Source: a virus
Strand: one strand, 5' to 3'
Length of the DNA: 64,000 nt
IMG/VR virus record: IMGVR_UViG_3300033233_000017
Location: 1-64,000 of that record
Shown here: positions 9,048 to 9,143 of the stretch, piece by piece
Layout: each line of letters begins with the position of its first letter
Numbering within the stretch: position 1 is the first letter of the stretch
Translations under genes and position numbers: made by a program
Notes under the pieces: model-generated
The model's database searches: none
Told to the model about the DNA's origin: nothing
The model's input: the letters and a program-made list of their open reading frames with translations, nothing else

Positions 9048-9143
9048 GGTGAGTTGGCAGAGTGGCTGATTGCGCCAGCCTTATAAGCTGTGTAGCGGTA
9101 CTCGCACTACCGCTCGCGGGTCCGAATCCCGCACTCACCGCCA
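9048..9143 (+). tRNA. Serine-type class II tRNA with anticodon UAU
   Basis: A complete cloverleaf with encoded CCA: acceptor GGTGAGT/ACTCACC, D arm GCAG..TTGC with GG, anticodon arm CCAGC-CTTATAA-GCTGT (first pair mismatched), a 7-bp variable arm AGCGGTA/TACCGCT, and T arm GCGGG-TCCGAAT-CCCGC. The long variable arm and discriminator G73 are serine identity features, whereas anticodon UAU (9082-9084) reads the isoleucine codon AUA. The T loop has C where U55 is nearly invariant. It lies inside the transposon, about 100 bases from its right end. It may insert serine at AUA, or it may be a decayed or specialised tRNA. Confidence 0.8.

Follow-up and report, generated by a model that had tools for sequence, protein, structure and literature searches.

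Why would a transposon carry a transfer RNA (tRNA) with the body of a serine tRNA and an anticodon for isoleucine? The question is raised by a 64,000-nt stretch of viral DNA (positions 1 to 64,000 of IMG/VR record IMGVR_UViG_3300033233_000017; hereafter, the window), in which an intact tRNA gene with the anticodon UAU lies inside the terminal inverted repeats of an IS1595-family transposon. We suggest, with a probability of roughly 0.5, that this tRNA is charged with serine and reads AUA as serine or another small polar residue, mainly in translating the element's own genes. The same anticodon recurs on two tRNA scaffolds in related elements, and AUA codons in the transposases of these elements behave unlike isoleucine codons. 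The proteins of this transposon and of its three distant relatives may be written in a genetic code of the elements' own.

The tRNA gene

The gene and its diagnostic parts are as follows.

9048-9143, plus strand: type II tRNA with serine body, anticodon UAU and encoded CCA (ARAGORN, Rfam, folding, classifier)
9082-9084, plus strand: anticodon TAT (ARAGORN)
9094-9114, plus strand: variable arm, 7-bp stem and 7-nt loop (folding)

Is this a sound tRNA? The original prediction, made from the letters alone, had described a complete cloverleaf with encoded CCA, a 7-bp variable arm and the discriminator base G73, and ARAGORN, Rfam and RNA folding agree with that description. ARAGORN calls tRNA-Ile(TAT) at 9048-9143(+), bearing out the anticodon. 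Covariance-model scoring, proposed as a check, gives a match to RF00005 of 50.6 bits (gathering score, 29; E 7e-8); type II tRNAs from two bacterial genomes range from 47.6 to 60.9 bits against the same model, so that a value of this size is usual for a tRNA with a long arm. The folding energy is low (z = -2.56). The cloverleaf is of the 7/5 type, with a fully paired 7-bp acceptor stem and 5-bp T stem and a paired variable stem. It departs from the standard form in a C.U mismatch at 27-43 and in C55, the latter already remarked upon as the lack of U55 in the T loop. C55 is common to the tRNA of a related element (L199), and a crude motif count finds it in at most 12% of 843 tRNAs; being present in the relative and not rare, it is no sign of decay.

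Which amino acid would such a tRNA carry? With the anticodon masked, a nearest-neighbour classifier (120 of 123 correct in leave-one-out tests) groups the body with tRNA-Ser, closest to tRNA-Ser(GCU), and the serine-type assignment of the original prediction is upheld. An ordinary tRNA-Ile(UAU) has A73 and a short variable loop; G73 and a 7-bp variable arm are found here. Seryl-tRNA synthetase ignores the anticodon (PMC7609411), so charging with serine is expected for a serine body. A long variable arm and G73 combined with the non-serine anticodon UAU are also the marks of allo-tRNAs, whose acceptor and T stems are arranged 8/4 or 9/3. Since its stems are 7/5, the window tRNA is not classed as a strict allo-tRNA, but it would be expected to work like one.

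Two other origins were rejected. The gene is not a phage-borne tRNA, as it sits inside the transposon and outside any phage tRNA cluster, and it is not kin to the long-arm UAU tRNAs of large phages, which typically have A73, another D arm and a CAGATTA loop. Those tRNAs are widespread in phage contigs and tRNA arrays (L010-L125, e.g., L034, L055 and L100); mostly with A73 and a variable-arm loop near CAGATTA, and not of serine type, they are apparently a separate phage tRNA-Ile(UAU) class. As a control, none of 124 viral loci, most of them chosen by UAU tRNA patterns, has an IS1595 transposase. Exact-pattern matches for further Ser/UAU tRNAs were also set aside: L003-L005 lie outside IS1595 elements, and L277 is no tRNA. 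The sole other tRNA of the virus record is a tRNA-Pro(TGG) (G000:C1:73794-73868(-); L194 9791-9868).

UAU tRNAs in related elements

The original prediction called for a search for the same tRNA in other IS1595 elements. In IS1595 loci from about 131 distinct contigs of the viral collection and in some dozens of loci from genomes, three relatives of the window element carry UAU tRNAs, one of them with the same cargo. The refuting outcome named in that prediction, a tRNA missing from all related elements, did not occur. This one, L199, has a Ser/UAU tRNA homologous to that of the window, matching it in D-arm and T-loop sequence, and the tRNA is divergent from a toxin operon. Its repeats are related (GGCGATTATGCACTTGACACAGAA), and its cargo comprises a Gp49-like toxin (PF05973), a helix-turn-helix (HTH) antitoxin and a DUF3467 gene; the toxin and DUF3467 proteins of the two elements are too diverged for BLASTP alignment. 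The other two relatives, L213 and L196, have UAU tRNAs on the 8/4 allo-tRNA scaffold. L196 was selected since its AUA codons fell in column types like those of the window transposase, and its tRNA was then found; that tRNA scores 39.4 bits (E 7e-5) against the tRNA-Sec model, under that family's gathering score. The transposases of the four UAU elements form one deep clade (support 0.88) with pairwise distances of 0.95–1.6.

Could the gene instead be a captured tRNA-Ser with a drifted anticodon, a decaying passenger without a role? Such a history would fit the 27-43 mismatch and C55, as well as the weakness of the anticodon arm in the L196 tRNA, and most IS1595 elements have no tRNA. Against it, the remaining stems are paired, CCA is retained, and the same anticodon stands in four divergent elements on two scaffolds; the behaviour of AUA in the transposases, described below, also speaks against it. 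With UAU preserved on different scaffolds whose stems remain paired, the decaying copy that the original prediction had allowed for is improbable.

AUA codons in the transposases

How do the elements use the codon that this tRNA would read? AUA accounts for 5/16 isoleucine codons in the window transposase, 4/20 in that of L199 and 4/14 in that of L213. IS1595 transposases matched for G+C content at third codon positions use it for 2.7–5.2%, with 0 of 22–25 reaching the levels of the UAU elements, and a second IS1595 transposase in the window uses it for none of 14. A count of AUA in the element's genes, suggested at the outset, gives 12 of 40 isoleucine codons vs 28 of 528 in the phage genes.

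Given the distances within the clade, synonymous sites should be saturated. In the 16 alignment columns with "Ile" in at least two of the four transposases, AUA is never mixed with AUU or AUC: in 3 columns every such codon is AUA, and from the other 13 AUA is absent. Under random assignment, 7.7 columns are mixed on average, and the zero-mixing outcome did not occur in 200,000 trials. AUU and AUC mix in 7 of the 13 columns, which matches chance expectation, and random quartets of AUA-rich elements mix in 9.2 columns vs 9.7 expected. The lack of interchange with standard synonyms, while controls mix, is the pattern of a reassigned sense codon.

The residues that face these codons in the sister transposases differ as well. 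They are hydrophobic in 3 of 20 cases for AUA vs 112 of 133 for AUU and AUC (p 1e-9; here the p-values are descriptive, many tests having been picked as work progressed on one small alignment). Facing AUA, isoleucine occurs 0 times, valine 0 times and serine 5 times. When AUA columns are scored with BLOSUM62, serine ranks top of all amino acids and isoleucine near the bottom, and serine beats isoleucine in 99.7% of column bootstraps. That AUA does not stand for isoleucine in these four transposases is well supported by their alignment; that it stands for serine is moderately supported. This codon evidence appears to be new.

Several points weigh against a serine reading. Serine is the best residue in just 51% of column bootstraps. 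A family-wide profile at the AUA columns of the UAU elements scores isoleucine at -8.9 (at control AUA columns, +17.6) and serine at -6.0, and its highest residue is lysine (+2.3), not serine. Two common AUA columns, one near the N-terminus and one before G-T/S-Y/F-H, are often isoleucine in other elements. Across the element genes of L199, L196 and L213, AUA makes up ~22% vs 16% in flanking open reading frames (ORFs), so that a clear excess is confined to the window. No recoding is seen in the transposases of elements whose tRNAs have foreign anticodons other than UAU, and some UAU allo-tRNAs are unusable in E. coli (PMC7609411). The base for recoding is four elements of a single lineage with ten AUA columns.

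Might AUA still mean isoleucine, being kept at some sites as a slow or regulatory codon, with the tRNA, whatever its charge, tuning translation? Conservation of the three shared columns as AUA (in 3/3, 3/3 and 4/4 elements) would suit this. At the unshared AUA sites, however, the sisters have neither isoleucine nor valine and are mostly polar, and G73 with a long variable arm is not the body of a tRNA-Ile. We regard this explanation as distinctly unlikely.

Alternatively, the tRNA might be a mistranslating weapon or addiction device, the serylated form corrupting host proteins at AUA, perhaps checked by the adjacent toxin-antitoxin operon, with the element's own AUA codons incidental. The serine body with a foreign anticodon, the toxin operon adjoining the tRNA in the window and L199, and the presence in other IS1595 elements of tRNAs that would misread common codons all agree with such a device. 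A pure poison does not predict that AUA would be a separate, non-isoleucine code word in the transposases, and AUA is a poor target in the window's phage genes, where it is rare (2.4 per 1000 codons). A weapon is unlikely, though it deserves to be kept in mind.

Some broader uses of the codon evidence were tried and dropped. The idea that an AUA-rich transposase points in general to a UAU tRNA held for L196 and failed for L425-L427. L425, a 43% identical relative, has AUA at aliphatic columns, and one window AUA is faced there by serine (TCC); no tRNA was found in L425. Recoding in other anticodon classes was rejected, as AGA in L256 fits arginine, GAY in L163 fits aspartate, and CCN in L220 and L352 fits proline. 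Elements with leucine-bodied tRNAs and proline anticodons seemed to have a "key codon", CCA or CCU, at a C-terminal column; this idea was dismissed because 25 of 101 transposases have proline there, nearly all without a detected tRNA.

A proposed role for the tRNA

What would a serine tRNA that reads AUA do for a transposon? Expressed as a passenger gene, it would be charged with serine by the host seryl-tRNA synthetase and, through its UAU anticodon, would read AUA, making the serylated tRNA a translation component for correct proteins of the element, above all the transposase. Host tRNA-Ile2 would compete by inserting isoleucine, such that the yield of correct transposase, and with it transposition, would depend on the dose of the tRNA. 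The element's tRNA would then be a decoding key and possibly a dose control. The original prediction offered a weapon, a codon-specific regulator of the toxin or transposase, and a decaying copy; the AUA evidence best supports codon-specific action on the transposase.

A further-reaching proposal, which we hold tentatively and at somewhat less than even odds, is that in the IS1595 clade AUA has passed from isoleucine to serine as a private reassignment, limited to the elements' own genes, and that the clade carries the UAU serine tRNA as the key to it. The scaffold would have changed between 7/5 and 8/4 without loss of the anticodon or of several AUA sites, and transposase activity would be tied to the element's own tRNA.

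Why would it matter if these elements read AUA as serine with a tRNA of their own? First, the purpose of allo-tRNAs is called speculative in a review (PMC7609411), and the UAU class, at least, would gain a function and a home. Second, a sense codon would prove open to reassignment inside a mobile element of 3 kb whose hosts use the standard code. Third, transposon self-control would be available in a testable form. Fourth, automatic translation of such elements would be wrong at specific residues.

The element and its insertion site

The virus record is 102,726 bp long and has phage replication and lysis genes; the element sits inside it.

6365-9269, plus strand: IS1595-family transposon of 2,905 bp, passenger genes and tRNA included (inverted repeats, transposase domains, phage ORF restored by joining the flanks)
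6365-6391, plus strand: left terminal inverted repeat, CTTGGAGATTATCCCCTTGACACAGAT (100% complementary to 9243-9269)
9243-9269, minus strand: right terminal inverted repeat, pairing with the left
6417-7448, plus strand: IS1595 (ISXO2-like) transposase, 343 aa (PF12762 E 2.6e-35, PF12760, NF033547 E 6.5e-55)
6348-6361, plus strand: 5' end of the interrupted phage ORF, which resumes at 9275-9536

The perfect 27-bp repeats enclose the transposase, the passenger operon and the tRNA, confirming that the tRNA rides on an IS1595 transposon, and the ISXO2-like DDE domain and zinc ribbon place the transposase in that family. Its AUA codons are 12, 248, 278, 286 and 320 (bases 6450-6452, 7158-7160, 7248-7250, 7272-7274 and 7374-7376). 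Its nearest matches in bacterial genomes are only 36–37% identical, and those in plasmids at most 38% among the matches listed. Joining the flanks gives an open frame of 91 codons starting MKDPNPQFACEKC, which puts the insertion directly after the start of the phage ORF. Read from the sequence, the target duplication is imperfect (CCGAAAAT/CCGAATCC, 5/8 identical; the IS1595 norm is 8 bp).

Another IS1595 element in the window (11049-14009) has no tRNA; its target duplication is a clean 8 bp (TAAACCAC), and its cargo is a 275-aa protein without a known family and a PIN-domain protein. Elsewhere, 43560-52907(-) is one phage ORF, 3,115 codons long, which has a helicase-like stretch and may encode a polyvalent virion protein.

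The toxin-antitoxin-like operon

From left to right, the transposase (+) is followed by three genes on the opposite strand and, last, by the tRNA (+).

7656-7979, minus strand: DUF3467 protein, 107 aa (PF11950 E 8e-8, matched with the longer ORF 7656-8150)
7987-8553, minus strand: HTH antitoxin-like protein, 188 aa (HTH_3 E 2.7e-8; L199 antitoxin 30% identical over 125 aa, E 7e-15)
8513-8911, minus strand: toxin-like protein, 132 aa (assigned by position; antitoxin gene overlaps; L199 counterpart Gp49-like)
8966-8985, no strand assigned: palindrome ATATAACACCTGTGTTATAT, a possible operator between toxin operon and tRNA
9010-9037, minus strand: intrinsic-terminator-like hairpin

The toxin-antitoxin-like pair that had been proposed beside the tRNA is present as an HTH_3 antitoxin gene overlapping a toxin-like gene. 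The toxin belongs to a known family (Gp49) in L199; the window protein has no match in Pfam, PADLOC, NCBIfam or PDB. The palindrome might link the tRNA to the toxin operon, although no consensus promoter was found. Several elements have short Lys- or Arg-rich ORFs, loosely alike, close to the tRNA or to the end of the transposase (window 7411-7584(-), L199 about 6725-6860(-), L213 591-812(-)).

Might the gene product serve the toxin-antitoxin system, as a regulatory RNA or a decoy, and take no part in translation? Its divergent orientation from the toxin operon in the window and L199 is compatible with this, as is the finding that some UAU allo-tRNAs are not charged by E. coli synthetases in vitro (PMC7609411). 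A decoy would leave unexplained the retention of UAU and the distinct behaviour of AUA in the transposase, and no toxin gene was recognised among the L196 element ORFs, read by eye. We consider it very improbable.

Foreign anticodons in other IS1595 elements

Every type II tRNA listed inside or beside IS1595 elements has a foreign anticodon, in contrast to ordinary type II tRNAs elsewhere in the loci (e.g., the L208 array and L261), which keep anticodons of the serine or leucine set. Leucine-bodied tRNAs with proline anticodons recur in or near these elements, with UGG in L220, L210 and L352 and AGG in L241 and L336; the bodies of L210 and L336 were read from the sequence by eye and the other 7/5 bodies by the classifier.

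L220 2146-2234, minus strand: leucine-bodied tRNA, proline anticodon
L210 5952-6048, minus strand: leucine-bodied tRNA, proline anticodon
L352 2898-2985, minus strand: leucine-bodied tRNA, proline anticodon
L241 6044-6130, minus strand: leucine-bodied tRNA, proline anticodon
L336 9444-9541, plus strand: leucine-bodied tRNA, proline anticodon

A leucine body with GGA occurs in L264. L213, L264, L352 and L336 yielded no repeat pair that encloses the tRNA, and in these the tRNA is shown only as beside the element. The L352 tRNA adjoins an HTH-ImmA-like gene, and the leucine-bodied AGG tRNA of L336 adjoins a type I tRNA (9261-9334(+)) with a seemingly arginine-type body and the serine anticodon GCT. 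The IS1595 element of L256, which has the target duplication AATTATTA, carries a serine-bodied tRNA (5980-6074(+)) whose anticodon, UCU, reads AGA. The serine- or tyrosine-like GUC tRNA of L163 (1397-1484(-)) starts a few bases past an IS1595 transposase stop, and a 15-nt inverted copy of its anticodon arm lies just downstream (1346-1360). A type I tRNA in the IS1595 element of L202 (6078-6151(+)) is given a two-base anticodon by ARAGORN; its loop, seemingly of 8 nt, would suit a frameshift-type tRNA. Finally, in the GKRLTYRRx motif at the C-terminus of IS1595 transposases (e.g., L254, L217 and L310), x is nearly always encoded by NNT (ACT, CCT, ATT or TCT) regardless of residue, a hint that the DNA or RNA is under constraint close to the end of the gene.

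Comparison with known systems

Phages with alternative codes encode their own suppressor tRNAs and have stop codons reassigned genome-wide. The likeness is that of a mobile genome carrying a tRNA that would recode its own genes; the difference is that theirs are stop codons across a phage genome, whereas here it would be a sense codon within a 3-kb transposon. The nearest relative of the tRNA body, tRNA-Ser(GCU), differs in its anticodon, in which two bases are changed to give UAU. The element resembles other IS1595 elements with passengers in its ISXO2-like DDE domain, zinc ribbon, inverted repeats and passenger genes; in the literature searched, no report of tRNA passengers on IS1595 elements was found.

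A close parallel is with allo-tRNAs (Mukai et al. 2017, reviewed in PMC7609411), which are tRNAs for serine that bear foreign anticodons and fold as 8/4 or 9/3. The window tRNA shares their serine identity and non-serine anticodon; UAU is among their commonest anticodons, and they occur in soil metagenomes. Two allo-tRNAs put serine at non-serine codons in E. coli (PMC7609411). The combination that the original prediction thought new has partial precedent: serine allo-tRNAs with UAU were already known, and a link to transposons or toxin-antitoxin systems had been suggested (Mukai et al.; PMC7609411). The tRNAs of the window and L199 differ from allo-tRNAs in being 7/5, while their clade mates L213 and L196 are 8/4. 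Here, moreover, the tRNA lies inside an element's repeats and is accompanied by a matching codon signal in the transposase, neither of which appears in the review (PMC7609411).
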